Shown here piece by piece: positions 2,186 through 15,817 of a stretch of 25,304 nt of DNA. Position 1 is the stretch's first letter, and every line of letters starts with the position of its first letter. Under the pieces are notes generated by a model that was given only the letters and a program-made list of their open reading frames with translations, had not been told where the DNA came from and did not search any database. The position numbers were made by a program, and so were the translations under genes. Origin of the DNA: a virus; IMG/VR virus record IMGVR_UViG_3300028800_000297, positions 1 through 25,304 of that record; one strand, written 5' to 3'.

Positions 2186-2716
2186 TTGAATATCGTTACC
2201 CCGCATTACCCGGTACCAGCTCGTGATATGTCGCCGCGCCCCGTATCGGAAATCACTGACCTAATCATTCACCATTCCGATGGCCCCGGCAATCAGGACA
2301 TCCTGGCGATAGACCAGGAACACCGGGCCGAGGGTTGGGCGATGATCGGGTACTCCTACGTCATTGCGGGTAACGGCATGATCTACAAGGGCCGTCCTGA
2401 TAATGTTGTTCCGTCTGCAGCGTATGGGCGCAATACCCAGAGCGTGGATGTGTGCCTCCTCGGGGATTTCCAGCCCGGCACCGATGGCTTCCAGTCGAGC
2501 GTGCCGGTAGCGCAACTTCAGTCCCTCAAAGATTTGTCCGTCTACCTGCACCAGCAGTTCCCGACGATTGTTCGCACGATCGGCCACCGTGACGTCGCCA
2601 CCCTGTATTACCCACAGGACGAGGGCGATTATTCGACGGCTTGCCCCGGGACGGTGCTGTGGGATTTGCTTCCCCAGATTCGGTCTTACGTTTCGAGCAA
2701 ACTGACGAAGCCTTAG
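2186..2716 (+). CDS. N-acetylmuramoyl-L-alanine amidase (endolysin)
   Basis: A 176-residue Amidase_2/PGRP-fold enzyme, which cuts the bond between N-acetylmuramic acid and L-alanine in peptidoglycan to release phage at lysis. The zinc ligands expected for this family are visible: His29 in IIHHS, His134 in GHRDV and Cys153 in TACPG. Tyr56/Tyr58 in GYSYVI match the conserved region near the active site. The whole protein is the catalytic domain with no cell-wall-binding extension, as in T7-type lysozymes. It has no signal peptide, so a holin would be needed. TTG start with GGAG 5 bases upstream. Its stop overlaps the next GTG. Confidence 0.92.
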   Translation: MNIVTPHYPVPARDMSPRPVSEITDLIIHHSDGPGNQDILAIDQEHRAEGWAMIGYSYVIAGNGMIYKGRPDNVVPSAAYGRNTQSVDVCLLGDFQPGTDGFQSSVPVAQLQSLKDLSVYLHQQFPTIVRTIGHRDVATLYYPQDEGDYSTACPGTVLWDLLPQIRSYVSSKLTKP

Positions 2717-2844
2717 TGCGAAGGCCCCCAGAGTCCCGCCGCTTTCGGTGTTTGGAATGTAATCGGGTGGAGTGGATAGACGATCCGATGCCCGTTGAGA
2801 ATTGCCCCAACTGCGGTTTTATCTTAGAGGAGCGATATGCGTAA
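2716..2844 (+). CDS. Small zinc-ribbon protein, 42 aa
   Basis: GTG 2716 overlaps the amidase stop by one base (TAGTG). The product holds CLEC and CPNC pairs about 17 residues apart, a classical four-Cys zinc ribbon (FRCLECNRVEW ... ENCPNCGF). A longer reading from 2641 would lie inside the amidase gene, so the short form is preferred. The stop overlaps the ATG of the next gene by 8 bases. Role unknown; rubredoxin-like ribbons of this size are common in phages. Confidence 0.65.
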   Translation: MRRPPESRRFRCLECNRVEWIDDPMPVENCPNCGFILEERYA

Positions 2845-3328
2845 ACTGCTTGGTCTGGTGGCGCTGTTTGCGCTCTCGTTCTCTCCGATGGTGGCTTTTG
2901 CTGCTGTCGTACAACCGGGACCCACCACCAACACCTCGGGTGTCTGCACCAATGGAAATCCCTGTGAGCCGGCGGTGGGCGACCAACCCTTTGTGGCGGT
3001 GCCTACGACTTCTTTGGCGCAGATCATTGCTGCTCCGACCAATGCCGTTCAGGCCATTCACTTCACTTCCATCTCAGCAATGGGGTATGAATCGGCTACG
3101 GGTGGGGTGCTGGAGATTGAGCAGGGCACGGGGACTAACTGTGCTTCCAATGCCTCGGTCATCGCTTACGTTCTCTATCTCCCGGCTTCGGCTGGCGTAG
3201 CGACGTTCTCGGTGGGGTCGGGGAATGGCTCGGTGCTGATTGTGAAGCCAGGGTATGCGGCGTGTGTGATCGTAGCGGCGGGAACCATTACGGCTGCTGG
3301 CATCTGGGGCACCTACGCAATCCTGTAG
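2837..3328 (+). CDS. Secreted small protein, paralog of the gene at 15329
   Basis: 163 residues beginning with a clear Sec signal peptide (MRKLLGLVALFALSFSP, cleavage likely after AFA near residue 22). The mature part is rich in Gly, Ala, Ser and Thr and looks beta-rich. It has four Cys (SGVC, NPC, TNCASN, AAC) that could form disulfides after export. It is clearly related to the protein at 15329: both share YESATGG or VESATGG followed by a GTGTNCASN motif, and a terminal GTYA. The ATG has AGAGGAG upstream. Function unknown; an envelope or surface role is inferred. Confidence 0.8.
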   Translation: MRKLLGLVALFALSFSPMVAFAAVVQPGPTTNTSGVCTNGNPCEPAVGDQPFVAVPTTSLAQIIAAPTNAVQAIHFTSISAMGYESATGGVLEIEQGTGTNCASNASVIAYVLYLPASAGVATFSVGSGNGSVLIVKPGYAACVIVAAGTITAAGIWGTYAIL

Positions 3329-3538
3329 ATGGCGATTACTTTAGCCGTCGAGAGATTCAATGGTCGCAAGGAAGTCCTGTTGTTATTGGATGGCGACCGA
3401 TTAAAGTTTTCGGTGAACTCCCCCAGCAGGGTTGAGCCAGTCCTAAAGGCGGCTCGTGAGCTTGCAAAGGCATTGGGTTCACCGTATGAGTTCGAGGTCA
3501 CACTAGCACCGGGCTATGAGCCCAGGAGATACGACTGA
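3329..3538 (+). CDS. Small 'GDRL' protein, paralog of the gene at 5084
   Basis: 69 residues, ATG directly after the stop of the secreted protein. The central pattern GDRLKF ... ARELAKALG.PYEF recurs in the protein at 5084 (GDRLRF ... AELLARAIG.PVEY), so the two are homologous. A beta-hairpin followed by an amphipathic helix is likely. No known family is recognised. Both copies are next to genes for exported proteins, which may be meaningful or accidental. Confidence 0.65.
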   Translation: MAITLAVERFNGRKEVLLLLDGDRLKFSVNSPSRVEPVLKAARELAKALGSPYEFEVTLAPGYEPRRYD

Positions 3539-3992
3539 CTTGGCTCGTTCCAAGACGACAAGAGCAATCGCACTGTATCAGCGCGGTTTTAATTTCAGGG
3601 AGATCGGTGAGCGCTTAGGGGTTTCGGCTTCTACGGCACGGCGATGGCTCATCAAGGCGCACACGGTGCAGACGGCTGATGGCCCGAAAGTCCTGGCTCC
3701 AGTCGGATGCTGGGTAGTCCGAGACCCGCAAGAAGAACTGGACCGCTACGCTCGCAAGGCACAAGAAGAAGTCTTGCGGTATTGCGAAGAGGCGGATTAC
3801 GGCAAGCCGCATACTCCAAAGCGTCAACCGTTGACCGAGGGTTTTCCGATTGCTCCGGAACCCCCAACCCCAGCTTCGATGTCTGGTGCTCGCTGCGTTC
3901 ACGAGTATTCCGATGGTAGGCCCTGCAACGTCTGCAATCCCAAGTCCACGTTCTTTACCCGATTACTGAGAGCAGCGGGCTTCAAGGCGTGA
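3516..3992 (+). CDS. Helix-turn-helix protein with C-terminal Cys motif
   Basis: 158 residues from ATG 3516. An in-frame TTG at 3540 with AGGAG 11 bases upstream would give 150 residues and overlap less with the previous gene. Residues about 17-47 form a resolvase/Hin-type HTH (ALYQRGFNFREIGERLGVS, then ASTARRWL), so DNA binding is likely. The C-terminus has a possible metal site (RCVHEYSDGRPCNVC). It may be a transcription regulator of the phage or a terminase-small-like protein. It sits away from the large terminase, so a regulator is preferred. Confidence 0.7.
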   Translation: MSPGDTTDLARSKTTRAIALYQRGFNFREIGERLGVSASTARRWLIKAHTVQTADGPKVLAPVGCWVVRDPQEELDRYARKAQEEVLRYCEEADYGKPHTPKRQPLTEGFPIAPEPPTPASMSGARCVHEYSDGRPCNVCNPKSTFFTRLLRAAGFKA

Positions 3993-4159
3993 CGGTAGCC
4001 GAGCTAATCGAAAAGCTAAAGGCGATGCCCCAGCAGGCCACGGCTGTGTACCCAGACTGTGGCGGCGAGGAGCAAGAAATAACTGACGCCGAGGCGCAGT
4101 ACGAAATGGGATACCGCGACGAATCCGATATGGATTTGGTATCGGTGTTGCTTAGTTGA
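3989..4159 (+). CDS. Small phage protein of the TVAELIEKL type, 56 aa
   Basis: GTG 3989 overlaps the previous stop (GTGA) and the TGA stop overlaps the next start (TTGA). The product begins MTVAELIEKLKAMPQQATAV, a pattern I recognise from many small phage proteins that start with a helix (AELI..L..MP..A.V). The rest is acidic (GGEEQEITDAEAQYEM). Function is unknown across that group. It lies exactly in the gap between two confident genes. Confidence 0.7.
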   Translation: MTVAELIEKLKAMPQQATAVYPDCGGEEQEITDAEAQYEMGYRDESDMDLVSVLLS

Positions 4160-5082
4160 CGGCAATCAGCCGAAACGCTCCATGCCCCTGTGGATCCGGG
4201 ACGAAATACAAGAAGTGCTGTGGAGTAAGCATCCTCGCTGAAACCCCAGCGATACCAGAACCGGAAACCCCTGCGGTCAGGACGATGCGAGAGAAGCCCG
4301 AGATACAGAAGCCCGGCATTACGGTGCTGCTTCCTACTCGTGGGCGGCCCACCATCGAAACCCTGTGTGCGATGGCAGCGACCGACAGCATTCCCCTGAT
4401 AGTCATCCCGGCATCAAGAATGGGGATTATCGCCGCTCGTAATGAGTTGGCGAAGTCCGCCCCTAAGTTTCCTAACCATGCAGGCTTCATCCCGAAGCTG
4501 GGATGGTATGCGCTCTGGGTAGACGACGATGCCTTCTGGCGCAACGGTACGATCTCACGAATACTGAAGTCGCACATCACCACCGAAGCCACGCATCCGG
4601 GGACTGAGCATATCGTTGCCGGCTGGTTCACGGGTAGAAGTGCTCACGCAGCCGCCAAGGCGTACCGAGCAGACGGAACCCAGCCCAAACCGGGGCGCAT
4701 AGACGACTGCGATGATGGTGACGTGGTAGAGGTAGACCGGGTGGGCTTCCATTTCGTTCTTCACAGACAGTCGTTAATCACCAAGATGCACACGGAGTAC
4801 GGGGAGAATCTATTTAGCCCTGAGGGCACCAGTGAACTGGGTGAGGATACGGCATTCTGCCGTAGGGCCCGGAACATGGGTGCAAGGATTTGGGTGGATA
4901 CGGGATGCCCGATCGCTCACATAGACGACGACGGCGTTGCCTACTTGCCGGGTGAAGGCCCGATGAGAGTGGTGGGGTCAGAGTTGCACAAGATCGAGAC
5001 ACTGCGGAACTATGGCGACCTAGAAGATGCCCAGCGCAAGCATGAGGTATCCGGGGGCGTCACCATGATGGAGGCGGTTTAG
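4156..5082 (+). CDS. Glycosyltransferase-like protein with N-terminal SEC-C motif
   Basis: 308 residues, TTG start overlapping the previous stop. Residues 5-23 are a SEC-C zinc motif (RNAPCPCGSGTKYKKCCG), as found at the C-terminus of SecA. After a Pro-rich linker, residues about 54-260 resemble a GT-A-fold glycosyltransferase. ITVLLPTRGRP is the nucleotide-binding strand, WVDDDAF (residues 121-127) the metal-binding DxD, and GEDTAFCRRARNMG (229-242) the usual catalytic acid region, with His255 after it. Substrate unknown. Phage enzymes of this type may modify host surface sugars, phage DNA or virion proteins. The domain order is unusual. Confidence 0.8.
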   Translation: MTAISRNAPCPCGSGTKYKKCCGVSILAETPAIPEPETPAVRTMREKPEIQKPGITVLLPTRGRPTIETLCAMAATDSIPLIVIPASRMGIIAARNELAKSAPKFPNHAGFIPKLGWYALWVDDDAFWRNGTISRILKSHITTEATHPGTEHIVAGWFTGRSAHAAAKAYRADGTQPKPGRIDDCDDGDVVEVDRVGFHFVLHRQSLITKMHTEYGENLFSPEGTSELGEDTAFCRRARNMGARIWVDTGCPIAHIDDDGVAYLPGEGPMRVVGSELHKIETLRNYGDLEDAQRKHEVSGGVTMMEAV

Positions 5083-5083
5083 A

Positions 5084-5383
5084 TTGTCGGTAAGGCTTGA
5101 GATACTGTCTTCGGACGATACGTTAGTTGGTAAGGCCAACCTAGAGGGTGGCGACCGTTTACGTTTCGTAGCCGACAGCGAAGCGCGCATCGGCCACATC
5201 AAGCCCGGCGCAGAGCTCCTAGCCCGCGCCATCGGTATTCCGGTGGAGTACGTCATTGCCGAGCGCAAACCCGAGCCCGCTCCGATCATCAAGGATCGTG
5301 AGGCTGCGAAGGAAGCGGTAGGCAAGGCCCTGGATTCCTATGCTGCCGGTAATCGTACCCGCGATCTACCCAAGAAGCGCTAA
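5084..5383 (+). CDS. Small 'GDRL' protein, paralog of the gene at 3329
   Basis: 99 residues, TTG start with GGAGG 9 bases upstream. The first 65 residues match the 69-residue protein at 3329 (GDRLRF, then AELLARAIGIPVEY). A Lys/Glu/Pro-rich tail of about 35 residues (ERKPEPAPIIKDREAAKEA) is added. It directly precedes the secreted LamG-like gene, with no gap. No known domain is recognised. Confidence 0.65.
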   Translation: MSVRLEILSSDDTLVGKANLEGGDRLRFVADSEARIGHIKPGAELLARAIGIPVEYVIAERKPEPAPIIKDREAAKEAVGKALDSYAAGNRTRDLPKKR

Positions 5384-6250
5384 ATGTCGCCGCGCAAGGT
5401 TTTGGTGTGGCTTGGCCTCGCCTCGCTCTTTCTCTGTGGGCAAACAGCCCCATTCAGATATAGCGAGAGTCCGGTAATCGTCATCCCGAATATAGACGGC
5501 GTAATCTGTGGGGATACAACGGTAACCCATTACTGGAAGTTTGCCGATAGCCCCACAAGTTCAACCCCCGGCCCCGCACCCACACAACTGGGGGACTCGG
5601 CATCAGGCTGTGCCTCTGCACTACCTAGCCCTGTACCTCTCAATGCCAGCACCCCGACAGCATCACCCTGGCCCATCATTGGGGATCCAGGGATGGTAGC
5701 AGACGGAACAACGAGTGCAGAGCTAACCAATGGGGTGGGAGCATTGCAGGGCCAGTTCTTCACGATCGCCGGTTCGGGATTATTCTCCACTGCTTGCAAT
5801 GCCAATGCCGGGGGAAGCTGCACGGCAGACTTCAGCCTAGAGTGCATCGTAGACCCCAGCGGCCTCACGGCCACGACATCCTACTTCTTCGACGCAGACG
5901 GCACGGCATCAGGCTTCGGCCTGGGCCTCAATGCCTCCACGGGTCCGGTGATTAACCTCAACGGAACTGCGGTCACGAGCTTTGCCGAAAGCAGCAGTGC
6001 GGTGCCTTACGTCATCGCCTACTCCTATGCCGCATCAGGTCAGGTAAGCACCCTCTACGTCAATGGGGTGCAAGCCGAAACGATAGCCAGCCCAGCGCCC
6101 CAAGCCTCAGTCAACAGCATTACCTACTTCGGTAGCAAAACCGGAGCGGCTGGTGGATGGAACGGAAGACTGGAAAAATGTGCGCTACGCAATGTGCAGA
6201 TGACCCCGGCGATTGCCCGAAGCGATTACCTCTCAACAGGATTGCCTTAA
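5384..6250 (+). CDS. Secreted LamG/concanavalin-like protein, 288 aa
   Basis: ATG follows the previous stop directly. The N-terminus is a signal peptide or anchor (VLVWLGLASLFLCG). The remainder has the layout of a LamG-type beta-sandwich: an opening strand (YWKFAD), a central FSLECIVDPSG, a strand series (VINLNGTAVTSF, VPYVIAYSYAASGQVSTLYVNG), and a closing segment (WNGRLEKCALRNVQMTPA). Such domains bind glycans or ligands at surfaces and occur in phage tail and receptor-binding proteins. The signal peptide makes an envelope location more likely here. Located just before the terminase genes. Confidence 0.7.
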   Translation: MSPRKVLVWLGLASLFLCGQTAPFRYSESPVIVIPNIDGVICGDTTVTHYWKFADSPTSSTPGPAPTQLGDSASGCASALPSPVPLNASTPTASPWPIIGDPGMVADGTTSAELTNGVGALQGQFFTIAGSGLFSTACNANAGGSCTADFSLECIVDPSGLTATTSYFFDADGTASGFGLGLNASTGPVINLNGTAVTSFAESSSAVPYVIAYSYAASGQVSTLYVNGVQAETIASPAPQASVNSITYFGSKTGAAGGWNGRLEKCALRNVQMTPAIARSDYLSTGLP

Positions 6251-6260
6251 CTTCACTCTC

Positions 6261-6695
6261 ATGGATGATTCGGAACAGGCTCCAACTGGCGCGCGTAAGG
6301 GCGGGGGTGGGCGTAGCGCTCGCACTCCGATGCAGATAGAGCGCCAGGAGCGCGTGTTTAAGCTAAGTGTGCTGGAGCGCAGGACTGTTAGGCAGATCGC
6401 GGCGATTGAGAAGATAGACCCCAAGACGGTGCTGTCTGATCTAAAGCAAGAGGCGGCTCGACGCGCCGAGGAACGCGCTGCGACCAGGGAACAGGACATT
6501 GAGATTCATCTCGCCCTCATAGATGATCTGCGCGAGCAGGCTCTTGCGGCGAAGGGGATACCTGGGACTGGAGCGTTTGGTGCCGCGTCCAAGGCTATTG
6601 AGATGCGTGGCAAGATTCTTGGGCTTGAGGCTCCGTTGAAGGTGGATGCGGGGCTGGCTGACGTTCTTAAGGCTCTCACCGAAAAGGGTGAATAA
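6261..6695 (+). CDS. terS: Terminase small subunit (probable)
   Basis: 144 residues from ATG 6261; a TTG at 6213 would add 16 residues but overlaps the previous gene. After a Gly/Arg-rich N-terminus there is a HTH-like segment (VFKLSVLERRTVRQIAAIE, then KIDPKTVLSDL). A charged helix follows, then a C-terminal part typical of small terminases (AASKAIEMRGKILGLEAPLK). The small subunit recognises the packaging site and stimulates the ATPase. It directly precedes and overlaps the large subunit by 8 bases. The assignment rests on the HTH, the length and the position. Confidence 0.75.
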   Translation: MDDSEQAPTGARKGGGGRSARTPMQIERQERVFKLSVLERRTVRQIAAIEKIDPKTVLSDLKQEAARRAEERAATREQDIEIHLALIDDLREQALAAKGIPGTGAFGAASKAIEMRGKILGLEAPLKVDAGLADVLKALTEKGE

Positions 6696-8145
6696 CCAAG
6701 ACGCATACCGCAAGCTGGCCGCGATTATTCGAGAGCATCGTGGCGACAAGGTTTGGCTGGTTAAGAATCTGATTGGTGTAACGCCGCACCCGGGCCAAGA
6801 GAAATGGCTGCGAGGCGCTGTGAAGCGCGAGAATCTTCTGGTCACTGGTAATCGCTGGGGCAAGTCTGAGATTACCGCAGCAGATCATATCGCGTCCTGC
6901 CTCACCTTCGATGGCTGGACTGCAGAGATGGTTAAGAAATACGCGGAACGCAACGAGCCGTATCTCTCGATCAACATTGCTCCGCGGGCACCGCAGGCAG
7001 CGTATGTGTATCAGAAGATGCGCCAGATGCTCGGCAAGCCACACCTTAAGCCCTTCGTCAAGCGATATCTGCTCTCGCCGTTCCCGACGATTGAGTTCGT
7101 CAACGGGGCCAAGTTCGAGGCCCGAACGACAGACAAGGATGCCAAGAACCTTGAGGGTGGCAACTGGGACCTCATCAGCTATGACGAAGCGGCCATCGAG
7201 CGCAAGTTCACCGAGGTGCGCGAGCTTTTGCAGATGCGCGTCTTCGACCACGGCGGTCGAATCAAGTACGTCTCGACGCCAAATGGCCGCAACGACTTCG
7301 GTATGCTGTTCCTCGCAGTCAAGGACGAGATGGATCGCGGCCAAGACAAGGGCCGTTACGCACAGGGTGGACCGACAACCGAAAACATTTTCAATACCAA
7401 GGATGATCTAGACCAACTTACGGCGGGTCTATCTGATCGCGCCAAGCGTCAAAGAGTCTACGGCGAAGTTGTCGACCCTGATGGTTTGTTCTTCTCCTAT
7501 GATGGGTTGAAGGCGGCAATCAGTGACCAGCTTACCGACTGGAATAGGATTATCAAGGGTGACGAGAACCTTATCGCCCACTGCGAGATATATCCAGGCC
7601 AAGACGAAGATCATGATGGCAGACCGTGGATTGCGGAACATCCCGGTGATCGGTACGTTCATTTCTGGGATTTAGCTCGCAAGCAAGACTGGACCGTCGG
7701 AATCACGCTCGATATATCGGGCAAGAAGATGGTGCAGGTTGAGTTCGAGCGGTTCCAGGGGATGGATTGGTCGGATGTCTTTAATAAGATTCGCCACCGG
7801 CACAACAAGTACAAGGTGAGCGCGGTCAACGACAATGGTGGTGGTTCTACCTCACAGACGTACATCGACTCCACCGGGATAGGTGATGTGGCGATGGATG
7901 CGTTGCGGGACATCAACGCTGGTGGTTTGACGTTTACGAAGCAGACCAAGGATGAGGCGCTGGCCAATCTGCAGTCGGCATTCGATATGCATGAAATCGA
8001 GTTCCCCGAGATTCTGGTGGAGTTCGATGAGCTCAAGTTTTACGAAAGAGAAGACGCTGATCTGGTGCAGGATTGCGTTATTGCCCTGGCTGGAGCGGTG
8101 CAGTTCGGTAGGCGACACCCGGTTATGGAGTCGTGGACATTCTAA
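6688..8145 (+). CDS. terL: Terminase large subunit
   Basis: 485 residues from GTG 6688, which overlaps the small-subunit stop by 8 bases; an ATG at 6646 is also in frame. The ATPase part has a Walker A-type loop (TGNRWGKSE, about residues 53-61), Walker B with catalytic acid (DLISYDEA, 161-168) and a coupling motif (YVSTPNG, 194-200). The RNase H-like nuclease has FWDLA (Asp328), YIDSTGIGD (392-400) and a late acidic patch (DADLVQDC). It powers DNA translocation into the prohead and cuts the concatemer. Full-length family member. Confidence 0.93.
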   Translation: MNNQDAYRKLAAIIREHRGDKVWLVKNLIGVTPHPGQEKWLRGAVKRENLLVTGNRWGKSEITAADHIASCLTFDGWTAEMVKKYAERNEPYLSINIAPRAPQAAYVYQKMRQMLGKPHLKPFVKRYLLSPFPTIEFVNGAKFEARTTDKDAKNLEGGNWDLISYDEAAIERKFTEVRELLQMRVFDHGGRIKYVSTPNGRNDFGMLFLAVKDEMDRGQDKGRYAQGGPTTENIFNTKDDLDQLTAGLSDRAKRQRVYGEVVDPDGLFFSYDGLKAAISDQLTDWNRIIKGDENLIAHCEIYPGQDEDHDGRPWIAEHPGDRYVHFWDLARKQDWTVGITLDISGKKMVQVEFERFQGMDWSDVFNKIRHRHNKYKVSAVNDNGGGSTSQTYIDSTGIGDVAMDALRDINAGGLTFTKQTKDEALANLQSAFDMHEIEFPEILVEFDELKFYEREDADLVQDCVIALAGAVQFGRRHPVMESWTF

Positions 8146-8162
8146 GATTCTAGGAGGTTGTG

Positions 8163-9629
8163 TTGCCGCGAGATTCCAAGGGCCGTTTTACGGCAAAGGC
8201 TGCGGCAAGCGCACCATCTGACGCCTCGCTCCTCGCCGGAACCCTGGCCGATATGTCGGCAAGGCAAATCGGTGACAACGAGATTTACTGGGCCTTCTAT
8301 CGCTCCCACCCGTGGATTCGGGCGTGCGTTGACATCATCGCCAACGCCGTATCCTCGGAGGGCTACGATCTCGTTCCGGTAGACGATGACGACAAGCTCA
8401 ACGAGGACGACCCCAGGCTTAAAGACGTTCACACCTTCTTTCGGGTGGCGTGGATTGGTCGCTTCAACACGCAACGCAAAGCCATCAAGGCGCTGGTCAC
8501 CGATCAGCAGACCTATGGCTGTGCCTACGTCCGCAAGAAGTACGGCCAGCAGGACGGCAAGAAGACCATCGTTGCGCTGGAACGCCTGGATGCCCGGTAT
8601 ATCATCCCGCATCTGGCGCAGGACAAGCGCAGCATTGACTACTTCGTGTTGATGCCGGCGAAGTCCAAGGTTTCTGGGGCGGTGCAGGAAGCCGCGCAGC
8701 AGATGACCTGGATCAACGGCAACCAGGGCGAGCGCATTGACGCAAAAGACGTTATCATGCTTTCGACGGACTACGGTGGAGATGCCGTGCTCCCGTCACC
8801 CTCTCCGCTCGAAGCCCTAGACCTCACCTGTGCGATGGATCTCAGCGTACGCAAACACCGCAACGCCTTCTTCGAGAATGGCGCAGCGGTTGGGAACGTG
8901 CTCTGCAATATCACCGCAACGGACGACCAGGTAAGAGACGCCCAGAAGAAGCTCACGATGCAGCACGTCGGGTCTAACCGGGCGTACAAGAACATTGCAC
9001 TGGGTGGGGACTGGAAGATGGTTAACCTGATGCAGGCTGGCCGTCACGAGTTGGATTTCGTTAAGGGCACGGCCATCGTCATTGATGAAGTGATGGCGGT
9101 CTACAAGGTGCCTCCAGGTAAGCTCCGCAACGTCCAGGGCGCTTTAGGCCAGGCTGGTAAGGAATCGGACGACGAGACCTTCGAGCAAGAGTGCGTGCTG
9201 CCGATCGAGGAGTGCCTGTACGAGACGCTGACGCTGGAGATCCTGCAGAACGAGTTTGAGATTGACGACCTGCGGATGGTCCCGGCACGACGCAATAAGC
9301 TAAGACTTGACCGATTCAAGGCAGCGGTAGACGGTTCTAAGATTGGGATGACGGGGAACGAACTGCGCGACCTCATTGGGTTGCCGCGGATTGATGACCC
9401 GAAGTTCGAGATGGATGTGCCCTTGTATCTGGGTGTGACCAATAAGGGTGGCGTTGCGGCTGATGAGGCTCCGAACACGGATGCCCAACAGCCTGGCGAG
9501 ATGGACGACGTAACGCAACAGGGCGAGATGGAGTCGGCACCCGAGAATACAACGGTCGAGAATCCGGGGGCAGCGAAACGCACCGCAAAAAAAGCTCGCG
9601 GGAACGGCATGAAAGCGTGGCTGTACTAG
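8163..9629 (+). CDS. Portal protein
   Basis: 488 residues. TTG 8163 is favoured because AGGAGG at 8152-8157 lies 5 bases upstream; GTG 8160 would be too close. Visible portal traits are FYRSHPWIRACVDIIANAV near residue 40, the SSEGYDLVP strand, and a PPGKLRNVQGALGQAG segment before the long stem/wing helices. A charged C-terminal tail ends in basic residues. The dodecameric portal forms the DNA channel at one capsid vertex and docks the terminase. It lies between terminase and minor head protein, as usual. Confidence 0.9.
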   Translation: MPRDSKGRFTAKAAASAPSDASLLAGTLADMSARQIGDNEIYWAFYRSHPWIRACVDIIANAVSSEGYDLVPVDDDDKLNEDDPRLKDVHTFFRVAWIGRFNTQRKAIKALVTDQQTYGCAYVRKKYGQQDGKKTIVALERLDARYIIPHLAQDKRSIDYFVLMPAKSKVSGAVQEAAQQMTWINGNQGERIDAKDVIMLSTDYGGDAVLPSPSPLEALDLTCAMDLSVRKHRNAFFENGAAVGNVLCNITATDDQVRDAQKKLTMQHVGSNRAYKNIALGGDWKMVNLMQAGRHELDFVKGTAIVIDEVMAVYKVPPGKLRNVQGALGQAGKESDDETFEQECVLPIEECLYETLTLEILQNEFEIDDLRMVPARRNKLRLDRFKAAVDGSKIGMTGNELRDLIGLPRIDDPKFEMDVPLYLGVTNKGGVAADEAPNTDAQQPGEMDDVTQQGEMESAPENTTVENPGAAKRTAKKARGNGMKAWLY

Positions 9630-10417
9630 CCAGCAAACACGAAGACCGCATACTAGAAGCGGCCCCAGCCCTCGCAGACAAACTCGACGCCGCACACAAG
9701 AAATTGGTTAGCGACTTCTGGCGGGTAACTCCGCTGGCCAGGAAGGCCGATTCATCGGCTGCGCCAGCCATCACGGCAACCGAGGCCGCGGCCATTAAAG
9801 AAGTGGTCAACAAGTTAACGGGCGATGCCTGGAGCCAGGCGCTCTACGACGAGCTTTCGGTAATGGTGGAAACCGGCTACATCAATGCCGGCGACATCCT
9901 GCAAGCAGCGGGGCTGGACCTGAAGATCGACTGGAATACAGTCCCGGCCATAACGCTCGATGCGATCCGCAAGCACGCTGAAGACTTCGCCTTCATGGTG
10001 AACCAGCGCGAACAGCAAGCCCTATTCGATGTGATCGACGCAGCGGTAGCAGAAGGTCAAACCACAGCAGAACTGGCCGGCATCATCGGGGATACTTTCT
10101 CCGAGGGTTACCATGTGACGGACGACACCGGGCAGATCGTCAAACGCATACCCACCGACAATTGGTCGAAGATGGTGGCGCGGACAGAGTTGAGTCGGGC
10201 TCAGACGATGGGCAACCTTGCGCTCTACAATGCAGCGCAGATCGAGAAGGTGATGTATGTCACCAGCCAGGGCGAGAACGTCTGCGATATATGCGAACCG
10301 GACGACGGGCAGATTTACTCACTCGCTGACGTTGAGGGCCTGATTCCGCAGCACGCCAATTGTGCTTGCTCGTGGATGGCTGCAGACGAAGATGTTGCTT
10401 ACAAGGAGGCGGCTTGA
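9617..10417 (+). CDS. Minor head / head morphogenesis protein (Mu gpF / SPP1 gp7-like)
   Basis: 266 residues, GTG start overlapping the portal by 13 bases. The C-terminal domain is diagnostic: ARTELSRAQTMGNLALYNAA, then VMYVTSQGENVCDIC and HANCACSW. It forms a probable metal site from Cys223, Cys226, His246, Cys249 and Cys251. The N-terminal half is helical and Ala-rich. Proteins of this family associate with the portal and enter the head, and in some phages aid DNA ejection. Full-length for the short form of the family. Confidence 0.9.
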   Translation: MAVLASKHEDRILEAAPALADKLDAAHKKLVSDFWRVTPLARKADSSAAPAITATEAAAIKEVVNKLTGDAWSQALYDELSVMVETGYINAGDILQAAGLDLKIDWNTVPAITLDAIRKHAEDFAFMVNQREQQALFDVIDAAVAEGQTTAELAGIIGDTFSEGYHVTDDTGQIVKRIPTDNWSKMVARTELSRAQTMGNLALYNAAQIEKVMYVTSQGENVCDICEPDDGQIYSLADVEGLIPQHANCACSWMAADEDVAYKEAA

Positions 10418-10533
10418 ATCTAAGTACGGATTCTGATGCGTGGATGGCTCTGGAGATAGTCAAGTCTTTTGGCGAAGCCCACCCTCTGTATAAACTCGCC
10501 GTGAACTATATCAATCGGAGGCTTTATTCTTGA
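10414..10533 (+). CDS. Mini-gene, 39 aa
   Basis: TTG 10414 overlaps the previous stop (TTGA). AAGGAGG at 10403-10409 gives a near-perfect ribosome binding site 4 bases upstream. The product reads MNLSTDSDAWMALEIVKSF and continues as a short helical protein ending NRRLYS. No family is recognised. It begins a block of very small genes between the head morphogenesis and protease genes. Confidence 0.55.
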   Translation: MNLSTDSDAWMALEIVKSFGEAHPLYKLAVNYINRRLYS

Positions 10534-10583
10534 GTTTTACCGTTGGCTGCGCGCTAGCCAGTAAGCTGCGGGCGGGTCGCTAG
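10530..10583 (+). CDS. Candidate 17-aa mini-ORF
   Basis: TTG 10530 overlaps the previous stop (TTGA), with GGAGG at 10517-10521 and 8 bases of spacing, so initiation is plausible. The peptide is MSFTVGCALASKLRAGR. The TAG stop abuts the ATG of the small membrane protein. It may serve to couple translation rather than make a working peptide. Confidence 0.35.
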   Translation: MSFTVGCALASKLRAGR

Positions 10584-10706
10584 ATGACTTGGTGGGGCTG
10601 GGCGCTCTGTGGAGTAGCAGTGATTGTCGGCTTAGTCGCCGCATCCGCGCTCGTCTACGGCGTCATCGTTCTCGCTGACCTCGCCATGCGTGGCGGTGGC
10701 GGGTAG
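10584..10706 (+). CDS. Small membrane protein, 40 aa (holin-like size)
   Basis: ATG directly after the mini-ORF stop. The product has one strong hydrophobic segment (WALCGVAVIVGLVAASALVY, continuing to VIVLA, residues about 6-31) and ends MRGGGG. A single-span protein of this size could be a pinholin-type lysis protein, a membrane regulator, or an unrelated small membrane protein. The amidase gene is far away, so the lysis role is only a guess. Confidence 0.55.
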   Translation: MTWWGWALCGVAVIVGLVAASALVYGVIVLADLAMRGGGG

Positions 10707-10707
10707 A

Positions 10708-10932
10708 ATGTGCGTTGAGCCACAGGTTGACACGAGTCGTGAGTGCGCCGAACGGTTAGCATCTGCGTGCGTGTCAGAAGAAAACCGAGAGCCATTCATC
10801 CTTGGATTCATCGCCGGTGAGGCGTGGCTTCGGGGCGAGTTGTTAAGAAGGATGCAAAGTGCGCCACAGATCGTATTCGGTGAGCGCCCATCCCGTGCTT
10901 CTCTGCGTGGTCCGTGGGACCCATTGACTTGA
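10708..10932 (+). CDS. Hypothetical protein, 74 aa
   Basis: ATG 10708 lies just after the membrane protein stop; GTG 10690 in the same frame would add 6 residues and overlap that gene. The product is helical (RECAERLASACVSEENREP, FILGFIAGEAWLRGELLRRM) with three Cys. No family is recognised. Its stop overlaps a TTG in the next gene (TTGA at 10929-10932). Confidence 0.55.
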   Translation: MCVEPQVDTSRECAERLASACVSEENREPFILGFIAGEAWLRGELLRRMQSAPQIVFGERPSRASLRGPWDPLT

Positions 10933-11513
10933 TTGACTACCCTGACTATTCAATCTTTCCATCCGAAGCAGGCTTTACCGGAAATCGTGGAATGTGCCCC
11001 AACACGGAGCGCTACCACGCCGCTGACCCAGACTCCACGGAGTTCGAGGTATTGGAGCTTGTGGCGGCATTCGTGCGAGCCCTACAACCGGAAACGGTGA
11101 TCGAAACGGGATCGGCATTCGGCTATGGCAGTCAAGCTATCGGTAACGCCCTAAAAGCCAACGGACACGGCAAACTCTACTCGCTGGAAATCATGTATCC
11201 TCGGATTGCAGAAGCCAAAGAGCGGTGCGAAGGCTTGCCGGTGGAGTTCATCAACATGAGTTCGTTGGAGTGGACCCCACCGACCAAAGATGTGGGGTTC
11301 GCGTTCTTCGATAGCCTCACGCATCTTCGTGGTGACGAGTTCATGCGGTACTTACCGTTTATGACGCCCGGAGCCATCGTAGCCTTCCATGATACCGGCC
11401 CGCAGCATTTGGTGTGGGGCAAGGTCTGGGAACTGCAAGGGAGACAACTGTTGCGAGCGATCAACCTCCGTACCCCAAGGGGCGTGGCGTTCTGTCAGGT
11501 GCTCAATGATTAG
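10914..11513 (+). CDS. SAM-dependent methyltransferase (class I)
   Basis: 199 residues from GTG 10914; TTG 10929 overlapping the previous stop is an alternative start, giving 194. The Rossmann glycine motif is VIETGSAFGYGSQAIG, about residues 62-77, followed by a LYSLEIM strand with the acidic residue that would bind the ribose. FAFFDSLTHLRGDEFMRYL and PGAIVAFHDTG match motifs of the Methyltransf_24-like group. The target is unknown; no DNA-methyltransferase catalytic motif such as DPPY is seen. As cargo in the head module it may modify a virion or host molecule. Confidence 0.78.
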   Translation: MGPIDLIDYPDYSIFPSEAGFTGNRGMCPNTERYHAADPDSTEFEVLELVAAFVRALQPETVIETGSAFGYGSQAIGNALKANGHGKLYSLEIMYPRIAEAKERCEGLPVEFINMSSLEWTPPTKDVGFAFFDSLTHLRGDEFMRYLPFMTPGAIVAFHDTGPQHLVWGKVWELQGRQLLRAINLRTPRGVAFCQVLND

Positions 11514-11598
11514 AAAAGCCTATTACGGCTGGCAGATTCCCGCCTTCGGTGATTCGCAGTGGATTGTGCGTGATGGGTACTGGGAGCGCGTGAAGTAA
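11506..11598 (+). CDS. Small aromatic-rich protein, 30 aa
   Basis: ATG 11506 overlaps the methyltransferase stop by 8 bases and has AGGTG just upstream. The product begins MIRKAYYGWQIPAFG and ends DGYWERVK, so one residue in five is Trp or Tyr. A longer reading from 11389 would be embedded in the methyltransferase and has unnatural composition. No family is recognised. Confidence 0.45.
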   Translation: MIRKAYYGWQIPAFGDSQWIVRDGYWERVK

Positions 11599-11599
11599 G

Positions 11600-11971
11600 G
11601 TGCCTAAGTATCGTCTACACCCCAAGGCCATCCAGGAGTTAGACGAACGTCGCAAGACGATTGCTTCAGCCCTGGGCGCTCATATCATCAGCGAACAGCA
11701 AGCCCGAGAGCAAGCCTGGGATGCGTTAAAGAGACTGATCGCTCAAGCGATGGTAGAAGTAGCAGATGGGGAGAGCACGGACAACGTGCCCATCGTCTGC
11801 AATGGCTGCGGCAAGGTGGTTGTGGTTGCCGGCGATGTCCTGCGGTACGAATGCCCATGCAGCCCAAGCACCGAGCGATATACATTCCAAAGCCGCAAGC
11901 TCGATCTCCCATTAGGGGCCGGACGAGTAGAAGATTACATGGCGGCAAACACGGGTCGCAGACAGATATAG
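11600..11971 (+). CDS. Hypothetical protein with CxxC/CxC site, 123 aa
   Basis: GTG 11600 lies one base after the previous stop. The N-terminal half is helical and charged (LDERRKTIASALGAHIISEQ). The C-terminal half has a CNGCGKVVV turn and a YECPC turn about 19 residues apart, like a zinc ribbon. It ends before a short gap with the ribosome binding site of the protease. No family is recognised; a small structural or regulatory role is possible. Confidence 0.6.
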   Translation: MPKYRLHPKAIQELDERRKTIASALGAHIISEQQAREQAWDALKRLIAQAMVEVADGESTDNVPIVCNGCGKVVVVAGDVLRYECPCSPSTERYTFQSRKLDLPLGAGRVEDYMAANTGRRQI

Positions 11972-11993
11972 ATTCCAGGTTAGGGAGTACGCC

Positions 11994-12584
11994 ATGCCGG
12001 GTGAGGCGTTAGGTTCAGTCGTTGAAAAGGCTTTCGTTTGGCACGACAGAGTGCGAGAGCATATCGCCAAAGAGGTGAAGGCGCGTTCCGAAAAATCCGC
12101 AGCGGTGACTACGGAAACTAAGTCAACTAACGACAAGCAGGTAGTGACTTTCAAGGCGATCGGCTGCGACGAGTGGGGAGTAATCACTGGCATCGGTGGC
12201 GCGGCAGGCTCTCTGCTGAAGCTGGACGGCGACGAGGAGTTCTTGGAAAAGGGTGACCTCGTAAAACTTGCCTGGGGCTTCACCGCCTCGGCGCAGCGCC
12301 AGTTCAAGGCTAACCACGACGACAACCATCTCCTCGATGCGGACCTCGTACAATCGTGGGTCGGTGCCCCCATCATCAAGGCTGGCGAAGTTGCGCGAAT
12401 CCTGGGTGACCATGAGTCGCTAACTCGCGACATGGAAGTAGTTGGCATTAACACTGAAAAGGGCAATGAAGGCTGGTGGTTCGTGACGGTTCGTCCGCAC
12501 GACCCGCGAGTTATCGAAGCTGCGAAGGCTGGCCTAATCGAAGGCTTTAGCTGGGGCGCATCAGTCACCAAGACACCCGTTTAG
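11994..12584 (+). CDS. Prohead protease (XkdF-like)
   Basis: 196 residues, ATG with AGGGAG upstream. The pattern fits the XkdF-type putative serine protease: EWGVITGIGGAAG, then FKANHDDNHLLDADLVQSW, then EGWWFVTVRPHDPRVIE and IEGFSWGASV. His108 and Ser186 are the likely catalytic residues (inference from the motif positions). It would process the scaffold and capsid proteins during head maturation. It lies just before the scaffold and major capsid genes, the usual order. Confidence 0.82.
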   Translation: MPGEALGSVVEKAFVWHDRVREHIAKEVKARSEKSAAVTTETKSTNDKQVVTFKAIGCDEWGVITGIGGAAGSLLKLDGDEEFLEKGDLVKLAWGFTASAQRQFKANHDDNHLLDADLVQSWVGAPIIKAGEVARILGDHESLTRDMEVVGINTEKGNEGWWFVTVRPHDPRVIEAAKAGLIEGFSWGASVTKTPV

Positions 12585-12607
12585 AATTCCAGTAGTGAGG
12601 TTCCAGC

Positions 12608-13855
12608 ATGGCTGAAAAAGCTAAACGGCTGTCGGATCCGATTGCCCATGAGCTTTCCATTATCTTTGGTGAACACAAGGGCAGTCGCTGGGCACCTGTC
12701 AATCCCGAGGCCATCGTTCTCGGCTTGAAGGGCAAGCCGGTAGCCGATGAAGGCAAAACTTTCGTTGAGCGATTGAAGTCGTGGTTCGTTGGAGCGGGTG
12801 ATGAGCCCACCAATCTGGATTTCGTGTGCTCGCTATTCTGTCAGGCGTACTACGATCTGCAGAATGCCATGTGCATTAATGAAGACGATGTTCGCCAGAC
12901 AGCGGTCGAAGGCGTTCTGGAGAAATTCACCGCCGAGTTCGGCAAACTAAATTCTGAGAAGGCCGGAAAACGCCATAGCGCTGCAGACCAAGCCAAGATC
13001 GACGGCATCAAAGATGCACACGAGAAGGCTGGTAAGGCGCTGGACAAAGCCGCCGCCGCTCTAAACGCCGCCAAGGATCACGTTTCGGGATTATACCCGA
13101 GCGAGTCCGATGTGCAGCAACGCAAGGATGGCGACACCACGAATACCGATGACGCGGCGAAAAAGGCTGGCCAGGTTCTCGTTGAGGATTTGGATTACAA
13201 GGCTGCTTGCGAGGAGATCGGTGAGCCATTCGAGGGCCGCATCGTCAATAAGGGTGATGAAGAAGGTGCTTACGGTGACGTTGAGTACGCCGACGCCAAA
13301 AACAAAAAGTATCCCGTAGATACCAAAGAGCACGCCAAAGCGGCGTGGTCGTATATCAATCAGCAAAAGAACGCGGACAAGTATCCGTCCGACGAACTCG
13401 CTACGATAAAGTCGAAGATTCGAGCCGCCTGCGACAAGTTTGGCGTCGAGATCAGCGACGATTCTTCCAAGTCTGGAGAACTAGACATGACTAAGGATGA
13501 AGTTGCGGCTCTCGTTGCCGACGCCGTTAAGGGTGCCGTTGCCGAAGCCGTCACCGCCGTAAAGGCCGACGCACAAGCCGAACTCGATGCCGCCAAGGCA
13601 GCTGCTGCCGCTGAAGTAGAGAAGGCGAAAGCCGACGCTGCCAAGGCTGCTGCCGATGCCGAAACCGCACAGGCAGCGGAAGCCGCTGAGAAAGCCAAGC
13701 GTAAAGCCGCCGAGAAGACGATCAACGATGCGGCCCGCACCCCGGGTTCGCAAAGTGGTGGCGATGAGCGCACCCAAAAGGGTGCCGATGGCTTGACCCC
13801 GCTCCAGCGTGCGGTCAAAGCCGCGAACTCGGGCTCCGTTATCATCGCAATCTAA
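12608..13855 (+). CDS. DUF6582-type protein with C-terminal scaffold-like coiled coil
   Basis: 415 residues, ATG 12608 with GTGAGG upstream. Residues 1-130 are an unrecognised helical region. Residues about 232-284 match the DUF6582 pattern (KKYPVDTKEHAKAAWSYIN, then LATIKSKIRAACDKFGVE). Residues about 294-375 are an Ala/Lys/Glu-rich coiled coil typical of scaffolding proteins. The tail is LTPLQRAVKAAN, then SGSVIIAI. Placed between protease and major capsid, it most likely guides capsid assembly. An internal ATG at 13487 may make the scaffold separately. Confidence 0.75.
   Translation: MAEKAKRLSDPIAHELSIIFGEHKGSRWAPVNPEAIVLGLKGKPVADEGKTFVERLKSWFVGAGDEPTNLDFVCSLFCQAYYDLQNAMCINEDDVRQTAVEGVLEKFTAEFGKLNSEKAGKRHSAADQAKIDGIKDAHEKAGKALDKAAAALNAAKDHVSGLYPSESDVQQRKDGDTTNTDDAAKKAGQVLVEDLDYKAACEEIGEPFEGRIVNKGDEEGAYGDVEYADAKNKKYPVDTKEHAKAAWSYINQQKNADKYPSDELATIKSKIRAACDKFGVEISDDSSKSGELDMTKDEVAALVADAVKGAVAEAVTAVKADAQAELDAAKAAAAAEVEKAKADAAKAAADAETAQAAEAAEKAKRKAAEKTINDAARTPGSQSGGDERTQKGADGLTPLQRAVKAANSGSVIIAI
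13487..13855 (+). CDS. Candidate nested scaffolding protein (internal start)
   Basis: ATG 13487 lies in the same frame as the 415-aa gene and has GGAG at 13475-13478, 8 bases upstream. It would give a 122-residue protein beginning MTKDEVAALVADAVKG, which is just the coiled-coil scaffold-like part. Lambda makes its scaffold Nu3 in the same nested way from gene C. The internal start is an inference; it could also be an ordinary Met codon. Confidence 0.4.
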   Translation: MTKDEVAALVADAVKGAVAEAVTAVKADAQAELDAAKAAAAAEVEKAKADAAKAAADAETAQAAEAAEKAKRKAAEKTINDAARTPGSQSGGDERTQKGADGLTPLQRAVKAANSGSVIIAI

Positions 13856-13865
13856 GTTTCCAACG

Positions 13866-13938
13866 GCGGCGATAGCGCCGCGCCTACAAATAGATGGAGC
13901 GCTTTGTAGCGCCTCCTGATTCTCCTATGGTGGAGAAT
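13866..13938 (+). promoter_or_regulatory. Three-hairpin leader of the major capsid gene
   Basis: Three hairpins stand in the short gap before the capsid gene. The first is GCGGCG 13866-13871 with CGCCGC 13876-13881. The second is GGAGCGC 13896-13902 with the imperfect partner at 13909-13916. The third is ATTCTCC 13919-13925 pairing perfectly with GGAGAAT 13932-13938. The third hairpin covers the ribosome binding site (GGAG 13932-13935, 7 bases before the ATG), so it may control capsid translation. Confidence 0.55.
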
Positions 13939-13942
13939 ACTA

Positions 13943-14980
13943 ATGGAGTATTCCAACAAAGCCTACTTGAACACTGTTGTAGGCGCAAACGCTAATCGTG
14001 AGGATCTCTCGAATACCCTCTACCTCACGGACGGACCGCAGCGTCCCATCGTCGCAAGCATTCAGCACACCCGTGCAACCAACACCACGCACAAGTGGCG
14101 TGAGATTGGTCTGACCGTTGCTTCGCGTACCGCCGTCGCCGGTGGCGGTGCCACGTATGCGGAAGGCGGCTTGCCCAACGCGAACGCCCAGACGCCGACC
14201 CAGCCGGTGAACGTCACCTGCAACGTCGGTCGTTTGGCGCAGGTGTCGGACAACGAAATGGCCGCGTTCAATGGTGGTGGCGCGATTCAACTTGCCGAGG
14301 GCGAGATGGAACGCCTCATCCAGGATGCGATCGACTTCGAGTCGGCCCTGGTGGCTATCGAAGTGATGAACCAGATGGAGTGGATGCACGTTACCGGCTC
14401 CGCGTCGAACACGACGATGGAAGGCGGCGAGTGCAACGGTCTTATCACCTGGATCACCACGACCAACGGAGCGTACTCGGTCGCCACTGGCGGCACGAGC
14501 ACGATTCCGGTGCAGATGCAGGAGATGTTCCTCAAGGACGGCGGTCGCGGTTCGGCCCAGAACTACCCGGCGTTGCACGCCGACACCTACCTGGTGCCGC
14601 CCGAGCTCATCCCGGACTTCAACTCGTATGTTGCCAATGGCGCAGGTCGTCCGGTTGCGGTAACGCTCACGGCTGACCAGGCTGCGATTGGTCTTCCGGC
14701 TGGTGTCTCGGTGAGTTCGTACAACGACGGCTTCGCTCAAGTGAAGATCGAGGTTGAGCCCTACCTGTCGCCGGCATACAACACCTCGGTGTCGCAGCCG
14801 AGCATCCTTGCGATTCGCAAGGCTCAAATCAAGCAGGCCGACCTCATTCCGTTCGGTGCCAACCCGTTGGCGAAGACGGACACGAGCATCAAGCGTCTCA
14901 TCAACTGCGTCTTCACGCAAGAGCACAGCGTTGCGAAGCACACGTACATCATTCCGAACGTGACTTCGGCGGTCGCTTAA
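13943..14980 (+). CDS. Major capsid protein (SU10/DUF5309-like)
   Basis: 345 residues, ATG with GGAG 7 bases upstream. The C-terminal part is characteristic: IPFGANPLAKTDTSIKRLI, then FTQEHSVAKHTYI, as in the SU10/DUF5309 capsid family with an HK97-like fold. The N-terminal part contains a long acidic helix (LAEGEMERLIQDAIDFE). It follows protease and scaffold genes and has very even, C/G-ending codons, as expected for a highly expressed gene. It builds the capsid shell. A long antisense frame opposite it is a codon-bias shadow. Confidence 0.87.
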   Translation: MEYSNKAYLNTVVGANANREDLSNTLYLTDGPQRPIVASIQHTRATNTTHKWREIGLTVASRTAVAGGGATYAEGGLPNANAQTPTQPVNVTCNVGRLAQVSDNEMAAFNGGGAIQLAEGEMERLIQDAIDFESALVAIEVMNQMEWMHVTGSASNTTMEGGECNGLITWITTTNGAYSVATGGTSTIPVQMQEMFLKDGGRGSAQNYPALHADTYLVPPELIPDFNSYVANGAGRPVAVTLTADQAAIGLPAGVSVSSYNDGFAQVKIEVEPYLSPAYNTSVSQPSILAIRKAQIKQADLIPFGANPLAKTDTSIKRLINCVFTQEHSVAKHTYIIPNVTSAVA

Positions 14981-14995
14981 CCCTAACCGTATTCT

Positions 14996-15022
14996 GTAGG
15001 GCTGGATTGCTTCTGGCCCTAC
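14996..15022 (+). terminator. Hairpin after the capsid gene (recurring type)
   Basis: GTAGGGC at 14996-15002 pairs with GCCCTAC at 15016-15022. The stem continues inward with two G-U wobbles and two further pairs around TTGCT. No good U-tract follows (TTCATT). It probably protects or marks the 3' end of the capsid message or acts as a partial terminator. It belongs to the hairpin group also seen at 15264, 15845 and 20919. Confidence 0.55.
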
Positions 15023-15041
15023 TTCATTCTCGGAGGCCAAG

Positions 15042-15245
15042 ATGGCTGTTGTATTAGACTTGACCCAGAGCGGTTCGGGTAGCACCAAGATTGCGGCGCA
15101 ACCCGGTGACACCGTTTCTTTCCAAATCGCCAACACGCTCATCAATGATGAGGCTGCTCTGGCGACGGCGATGACTGCGCTCGGTGCGCTTACCGCCGTG
15201 ACTGGCGTCACTTTCACCTTCTCTCTGGCTGGCGGCGCGTCCTAA
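15042..15245 (+). CDS. Small protein after the capsid gene, possible decoration protein
   Basis: 67 residues, ATG with GGAGG 5 bases upstream. The sequence is beta-like and free of Cys (VVLDLTQSGSGSTKIAAQPG, then DTVSFQIANTL), ending GVTFTFSLAGGAS. Its place after the major capsid gene and its strong ribosome binding site suggest an abundant virion protein, such as a head decoration protein. That is inferred from position only. Confidence 0.6.
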   Translation: MAVVLDLTQSGSGSTKIAAQPGDTVSFQIANTLINDEAALATAMTALGALTAVTGVTFTFSLAGGAS

Positions 15246-15263
15246 ACCGTCTTCCGGCAACCC

Positions 15264-15289
15264 GTGCGGCTGGCTTCGGCTGGCCGCAC
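15264..15289 (+). terminator. UUCG-capped hairpin (recurring type)
   Basis: GTGCGGC at 15264-15270 pairs with GCCGCAC at 15283-15289. The stem continues through a T-G and G-T wobble pair and two GC pairs to a TTCG tetraloop (15275-15278), 11 pairs in all. No U-tract follows directly. Such stable loops usually shield the 3' end or stop RNA decay. Confidence 0.55.
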
Positions 15290-15311
15290 CATACAGCCGC
15301 TCATTTATTTC

Positions 15312-15326
15312 TGACTACAGGAGTCA
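15312..15326 (+). promoter_or_regulatory. Ribosome-binding-site hairpin
   Basis: TGACT 15312-15316 pairs with AGTCA 15322-15326 around ACAGG. The ribosome binding site AGGAG (15319-15323) of the secreted protein gene lies in the loop and 3' arm. The stem is only 5 pairs, so it may be weak. Confidence 0.35.
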
Positions 15327-15328
15327 CC

Positions 15329-15817
15329 ATGAAGCGTTTACTCGCAGCGGCTGCATTCGCCGCCATGACGTTCGCGTCGTTCGCCCCGGCATCGGCGCAG
15401 GTTTACAAAGACAGCCAACTCGTTAACGCGAGCGGGCTGTGCACTCAGATCATCTCGGGATACCCGGTGGGCTGTGCGCCGACGATCGGCGACAAGCAGT
15501 TCACCTATGATGCGGGTTCGACCAAGACGCTGACGCAGTTCATCGCTGCGCCCACGGCTGGGTCGGTTCGCATTGCGTCGGGCTTCGTGTACGGCGTTGA
15601 GTCGGCCACTGGCGGCACGCTGGAGCTTGAGACTGGTACCGGTACGAACTGCGCGTCGAACACAACGATTCTGTTCGCGGTTGCTCTCGGTGCCTCGGGT
15701 CTGGTGACTGTCACGCTTCCCCAACTGATCGCGCCGGCAAAGACGGCGGTGTGCTTCTTCGTATCGGCGGGCACGCTCGTTGACGGCGGAGCCTTCGGGA
15801 CTTACGCGGTCTATTAG
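15329..15817 (+). CDS. Secreted small protein, paralog of the gene at 2837
   Basis: 162 residues with a clear signal peptide (MKRLLAAAAFAAMTFASFAP, cleavage likely after ASA, residue 23). The mature protein shares with the 2837 product the segment around VESATGGTLELETGTG, TNCASNT and the ending GTYAVY. It has the same spacing of four Cys. It lies inside the head gene block right after the capsid genes and has a strong ribosome binding site, so it is likely made late and in quantity. A virion protein with a Sec signal would be unusual. An exported late protein acting on the cell envelope is more likely, but unproven. Confidence 0.8.
   Translation: MKRLLAAAAFAAMTFASFAPASAQVYKDSQLVNASGLCTQIISGYPVGCAPTIGDKQFTYDAGSTKTLTQFIAAPTAGSVRIASGFVYGVESATGGTLELETGTGTNCASNTTILFAVALGASGLVTVTLPQLIAPAKTAVCFFVSAGTLVDGGAFGTYAVY

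Follow-up and report, generated by a model that had tools for sequence, protein, structure and literature searches.

The window analysed here, a stretch of 25,304 nucleotides of viral DNA (positions 1 to 25,304 of IMG/VR record IMGVR_UViG_3300028800_000297), carries two genes for small proteins with predicted Sec signal peptides, one next to the endolysin gene and the other among the head genes. As judged from their sequences, the two proteins are true paralogues that arose by duplication, and they belong to a large, previously unnamed phage protein family with members in many uncultivated phages. What the sequences themselves show is paralogy, membership of this family, export signals, parity of the Cys number, predicted fold and recurrent genomic place. 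On this basis we tentatively propose that the proteins act as binding proteins outside the cytoplasm around the time of lysis. The two genes are as follows.

2837..3328, + strand: copy 1, predicted exported protein of 163 amino acids (aa), with a signal peptide at about 1-22, Cys at 37/43/102/143 and a C-terminal predicted jelly-roll domain
15329..15817, + strand: copy 2, predicted exported protein of 162 aa, with a signal peptide at about 1-23, Cys at 38/49/108/142 and a C-terminal predicted jelly-roll domain

Both open reading frames (ORFs) were found where an earlier note on this DNA had placed them, and the four Cys residues that it had described for each protein are present in both. The Sec signal peptide was recognized in both by heuristic signal prediction. 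The two start codons are preceded by ribosome-binding sites graded good, AGAGGAGCGAT-ATG and ACAGGAGTCACC-ATG. The paralogy claimed in the note is borne out by the alignment of copy 1 with copy 2 (E=2e-24, 41% identity across 150 residues) and by the Smith-Waterman comparison of the mature parts, which scored 226, while 1000 shuffles averaged 39.6 and reached 74 at most. Chance similarity of the pair is rejected by these values, and a low-complexity artefact by the pair alignment and the shuffle test. The common core described earlier (ESATGG, TNCASN and GTYA) is present in both proteins, its middle part in the longer form GTGTNCASN, while the N-termini have diverged and the first Cys pairs differ. 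Both signal peptides follow a KR-hydrophobic-AxA pattern (MKRLLAAAAFAAMTFASFAPASA before Q and MRKLLGLVALFALSFSPMVAFA before A), and neither copy contains a lipobox, the predicted signals ending with ASA before Q and AFA before A.

The only close orthologue obtained from searches of protein-based collections is encoded by IMGVR_UViG_3300047471_000411 (L003), directly 3' of the capsid gene of that phage, and is 79% identical to copy 2. In the tree, the two copies and the L003 homologue form a supported clade (99/93), within which copy 1 falls outside the pair of copy 2 and the L003 homologue (100/97), indicating that the duplication is older than the split of the phage of the window from the L003 phage; the L003 contig starts beyond the position of copy 1, and the comparison there covers copy 2 only. 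The ratio of nonsynonymous to synonymous changes (pN/pS) between copy 2 and its L003 orthologue is 0.22, compared with 0.38 for the capsid protein itself, indicating that purifying selection is stronger on copy 2 than on the capsid protein. The selected role suggested in the earlier note is supported by this ratio, together with the family-wide signal peptide and even Cys number.

Neither single-sequence searches, run on viral contigs and on phages, nor a search of genomes with a small alignment found anything, and a motif search was required for detection of the family. Viral contigs were scanned for DNA of the shared motif GTGTNCA, yielding 111 stretches, in which ORFs of unannotated contigs were called greedily; a profile was then seeded from both window copies and the L003 homologue and iterated, the sampling of the family thus being motif-biased. 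The iterated profile detected 63 ORFs of IMG/VR phage contigs at E<=1e-3, 62 of them below 1e-8. Both window copies are included in this one profile (E=2.5e-25 and 8.6e-20), excluding the lack of relatedness at the profile level that the note had considered. The common domain of about 100 residues is located at or near the C-terminus and contains GTGTNC, with another conserved Cys close to its end. Both Cys are invariant across 56 rows, the first, for most rows, as a consequence of the search motif; a motif search with the Cys codon left free added three family members among the matches listed, all with the Cys, as a weak test in which most matches were unrelated.

Most members are 120-180 aa in length, and in the others the domain forms the C-terminus of proteins of 300-1156 aa that are also predicted to be exported. 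These long members are repeat-rich; one of 685 aa is encoded by a 57-kb relative of the window phage (G002), downstream of large tail-region genes. As to the copies per record (the records may be fragments), two genes were present in 2 records and three domains within one gene in 1, and otherwise there was mostly one. The window proteins gave no PHROG, Pfam or significant NCBIfam match, ten members scanned gave no significant match in PHROG or Pfam, and the sequence search of PDB gave no match. Homology to small beta proteins encoded behind the capsid gene of a Bradyrhizobium phage was also compared and was not supported. Matches among 50,697 phage records were confined to one metagenomic podovirus and two near-identical cultured Synechococcus phages, one of which is Yong-M4-211 (protein UPT53194.1; laboratory host PCC 7002), and a motif stricter than the family itself detected only three metagenome-assembled genomes (MAGs) of Acidobacteria in the GTDB genome set, all confirmed by the profile. 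From these few matches the family appears to be essentially viral and almost unsampled by culture. In the three MAGs (L132 3880-5314; L133 2892-4601; L131 7321-8000), the family gene is located in a conserved small cluster with genes for an exported protein of about 200 aa and a 115-aa MQ-VS-G-I-VPTPG protein, in surroundings that look cellular.

Signal peptides were called by a heuristic n-h-c test, not by SignalP. The test was positive for 37 of 47 complete family ORFs but for only 66 of 435 other ORFs of the same loci; for ORFs below 250 aa, the respective numbers were 23/25 and 28/275. In a wider set 53 of 62 members were positive, a few of the calls being doubtful and several of the negatives being truncated at contig ends. 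The n-h-c architecture is retained among members that are only about 25% identical. The number of Cys in the mature part was even in all 33 short exported members (four in 27 and two in 6), compared with an even-to-odd distribution of 36:21 for comparable control neighbours. One of the four Cys is imposed by the search motif, while parity itself is not. The first Cys pair occurs in two layouts, with a spacing of about 28-46 residues or of about 6-12 as in the window copies, but always as a pair. For neighbours of other families, the even-to-odd distribution was 25:4 among predicted exported proteins and 86:55 among non-exported ones, thereby lending independent support to the heuristic signal calls. 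The even Cys number is a strong signature of putative disulphides, and export followed by oxidation would be the simplest reading of the signals and the Cys parity. In copy 2 the predicted disulphides are C38-C49 and C108-C142.

The fold was predicted with AlphaFold2 for mature copy 2, using an alignment of 56 family sequences. The model, a confident jelly roll (predicted local distance difference test score, pLDDT, 82.2; predicted template modelling score, pTM, 0.74), contains eight strands within mature residues 33-138, and prediction is poor for the first 30 or so mature residues, which bear the first Cys pair. With no more than three close sequences as input, AlphaFold gave no usable model (pLDDT 35.5). 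In the Foldseek comparison with PDB, the top match was a porphyran-binding carbohydrate-binding module (CBM; 8xmz, E=9.9e-4, TM-score 0.36), followed by C1q and TNF heads and the spore proteins BclA, Ena and ExsF, while the best query TM-score of the list (0.53/0.58) was that of the trimeric cement protein of Helicobacter phage KHP40. Viral models that matched were uncharacterised phage proteins and minor tail, tail-repeat, pectate-lyase and collagen-repeat proteins. Overall, the E-values were moderate and the TM-scores 0.35-0.6. In sequence, the window proteins have no Pfam match to a CBM family, and no PHROG or Pfam profile of a known decoration protein matches them or the ten members scanned.

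The window family resembles the C1q/TNF-like heads (C1q globular head, TNF ligands, BclA, Ena/ExsF) in the predicted eight-stranded jelly roll, with a Foldseek probability of about 1, and in the C-terminal placement on long repeat proteins. It differs from them in the absence of a PDB sequence match, in TM-scores of 0.35-0.5 and in the family-specific GTGTNC...C Cys pair. The superfamily is characterized by a ten-strand, trimeric jelly roll, and the comparison covers an eight-strand monomer model that resembles it, with no sequence homology in PDB. The fold class of a C1q/TNF-like jelly roll is thus supported by the model, but a specific function is not.

The genes surrounding the two copies in the window are listed below.

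2186..2716, + strand: amidase endolysin, upstream of copy 1 (PF01510, Amidase_2; phrog_822)
5384..6250, + strand: third exported protein, with a predicted signal peptide and a Laminin_G_3 / concanavalin A-like lectin domain (PF13385, E=8.9e-10)
13943..14980, + strand: SU10-type major capsid protein, encoded two genes upstream of copy 2 (PF17236, SU10_MCP, E=4.5e-22; phrog_1328)
15042..15245, + strand: 67-aa protein between the capsid gene and copy 2, with a homologue in L003
15902..17110, + strand: 402-aa gene after copy 2, at the position of a head-tail adaptor, with no profile match

The location of copy 1 beside an endolysin gene, as described in the earlier note, is confirmed by the amidase upstream. 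Its location of copy 2 between capsid and adaptor genes holds on the capsid side, while the adaptor at 15902 is without profile support. In L003 the order is swapped, the 67-aa homologue following the exported gene. The protein at 5384-6250 contains 7 Cys, one of which (C18) is within the predicted signal peptide, and its gene is located just upstream of the terminase genes. SEC-C motif proteins are also encoded upstream of the terminase, at 4156-5082 in the window and at 483-1370 in a relative of the window phage (L017), and the L017 homologue matches glycosyltransferase family 2. The same relative encodes a predicted lipoprotein (MRKLLLGLLIGLTAC) at 5996-6883, between the minor head and capsid genes.

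The position of copy 2 in the head operon, which the note had considered odd, is real but not isolated, since it recurs in unrelated phages. Major capsid genes of four types were found to have a family gene directly, or a few (2-3) genes, downstream.

SU10-type capsid (SU10_MCP): window and L003, family gene downstream
phrog_212 capsid: L018 and homologues in L085, L116 and L126, family gene downstream
phrog_3437 capsid: L039, family gene downstream
phrog_10 capsid: L128, family gene downstream

In three other loci (L034, L060 and L130) the family gene adjoins the portal gene, and in the Synechococcus phage it follows the tail genes, with the gene for an exported protein of 786 aa immediately 3' of it and the endolysin gene a short way downstream. 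The next gene encodes a predicted signal peptide in 25% of cases, compared with 7% in control loci. Exported neighbours include a polysaccharide lyase in L055 (PF14099, E=1.3e-29), a LamG protein beside the family gene of the podovirus MW202554 (L130, 12922-13713) and, in L026, a pectate-lyase-like protein whose PF12708 domain follows the signal peptide directly, from residue 48 onwards, apparently leaving little room for a virion-attachment domain. Runs of consecutive signal-peptide genes were observed in L091 (3903-12128), L034 (6478-11510), L024 (6478-12627) and L072 (2998-5448); among their products are large fibre-like proteins and, in L091, a tail fibre with a collar domain. Among the head-tail genes of G002, an 827-aa exported Cys-rich protein with no assigned family is encoded (L014 15168-17651, - strand).

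The explanation that we favour, at a confidence somewhat short of even, is that the family members are late, periplasm-folded binding proteins, that is, surface or glycan adhesins, working outside the cytoplasm around lysis. The capsid gene is normally among the most strongly expressed, and we infer late high-level expression, periplasmic oxidative folding and an extracytoplasmic binding role around lysis. The proteins would be made late, from the structural operon beside the capsid gene, exported to the periplasm and oxidised there; the signal peptide would be required because the fold depends on disulphides, which form poorly in the cytoplasm. Around lysis, the mature proteins would then bind glycans of the envelope or outside the cell, as adhesin or lectin heads, and progeny would thereby be freed from surface and matrix rather than sticking. 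Each copy would have a target of its own, the two differing in their first Cys pair and in the diverged N-terminus, and the exported neighbours (LamG, polysaccharide lyase and pectate-lyase-like proteins) would form a matching glycan-binding and glycan-cutting set. A surface or glycan role is preferred because several exported neighbours appear glycan-active and at least one of them is without room for a virion-attachment domain. Exported relatives of the pectate-lyase-like tailspikes or depolymerases of phages adjoin family genes in L026, L055 and L034; unlike these enzymes, the window proteins have no enzyme domain. Conventional tailspikes carry an N-terminal virion-binding domain and, to our knowledge, no signal peptide. 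Several points weigh against this explanation. Glycan binding is only a hint at the level of the predicted fold, the CBM match having a TM-score of 0.36; the recurrent adjacency to capsid or portal genes would be no less expected of a virion component; the profile of one exported neighbour, L091:10485, is that of a tail-collar fibre; in a diderm, Sec takes proteins no further than the periplasm, and access to the cell exterior through lysis is assumed; and the signal calls rest on the heuristic.

The same set of observations may be read in terms of an exported virion component, oxidised and trimerised in the periplasm and joining heads, portals or tails when virions leave the cell at lysis; as a decoration or fibre head it would aid adsorption. 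We regard this as the main alternative, possible but rather unlikely, and give similarly little weight to its wider form, that some tailed phages complete their virions outside the cytoplasm by adding Sec-exported, disulphide-bonded head or fibre proteins at lysis. It is in agreement with the family genes behind four types of capsid gene and beside portal genes, with the domain forming the C-terminal end of long exported proteins rich in repeats (encoded in G002 downstream of large tail-region genes) and with the exported collar-domain fibre in L091. The KHP40 cement protein, with the best query TM-score, points in the same direction, and genes for such cement or decoration proteins are often located near the capsid gene; these proteins are, however, cytoplasmic, while the window family has Sec signals and disulphide-type Cys. 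Moreover, tailed-phage virions assemble in the cytoplasm, the head-operon position could simply give high late expression, and the exported pectate-lyase-like protein of L026 is without an N-terminal virion-attachment domain. A literature search limited to open-access papers found no described precedent for Sec-exported virion parts, and no paper that dealt with exported structural proteins of phages or with either of the two Synechococcus phages. If, on the other hand, the N-terminus were a hydrophobic leader rather than an export signal, the product could be a cytoplasmic head protein, as the gene position in the head module and the cytoplasmic assembly of capsids would suggest. This is the least probable of the readings, since the n-h-c architecture is kept at about 25% identity, the Cys number is even in 33/33 and other exported ORFs cluster alongside; an uncleaved signal on a protein of cytoplasmic heads, the outcome that the earlier note had set against export, fits poorly with the Cys parity.

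Receptor masking or superinfection exclusion would also be compatible with the small size, export and late position of the proteins, with their duplication and divergence, and with the sharing of the domain with long exported fibre-like proteins. In this reading the domain would occupy or block the receptor on the side of the cell, so that infected cells are protected and progeny released from debris that bears the receptor, as is done by Llp of phage T5. This is improbable, though less so than a role in lysis. Like Llp and other receptor-blocking proteins, the window proteins are small exported phage proteins, but Llp is an early-expressed lipoprotein, while the window family is encoded in a structural operon and belongs to another fold class, and both window copies are without a lipobox, excluding a lipoprotein of Llp/Cor type. 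With the strict motif in only 3 GTDB genomes, the gene is not a common prophage gene. Superinfection exclusion of the lysogenic kind is less likely because the family motif is nearly absent from bacterial genomes, that is, from prophages; lysogenic conversion was judged unlikely on the same ground, the pattern being stricter than the family. The position of exported copy 1 just downstream of the amidase endolysin would fit an accessory lysis protein that works on the envelope with the endolysin. We consider this very improbable, since copy 2 and most relatives are away from lysis genes and the proteins show a jelly-roll binding fold, with neither an enzymatic motif nor spanin features.

In the current view, the structural proteins of tailed phages are built in the cytoplasm. 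A widespread family of predicted Sec-exported, disulphide-bonded jelly-roll proteins, encoded repeatedly among head genes and accompanied by exported glycan-active neighbours, points to an extracytoplasmic stage in the late phage programme, a stage that is currently without a name in databases. If the proteins are virion components, a part of the virion would be assembled after leaving the cytoplasm.

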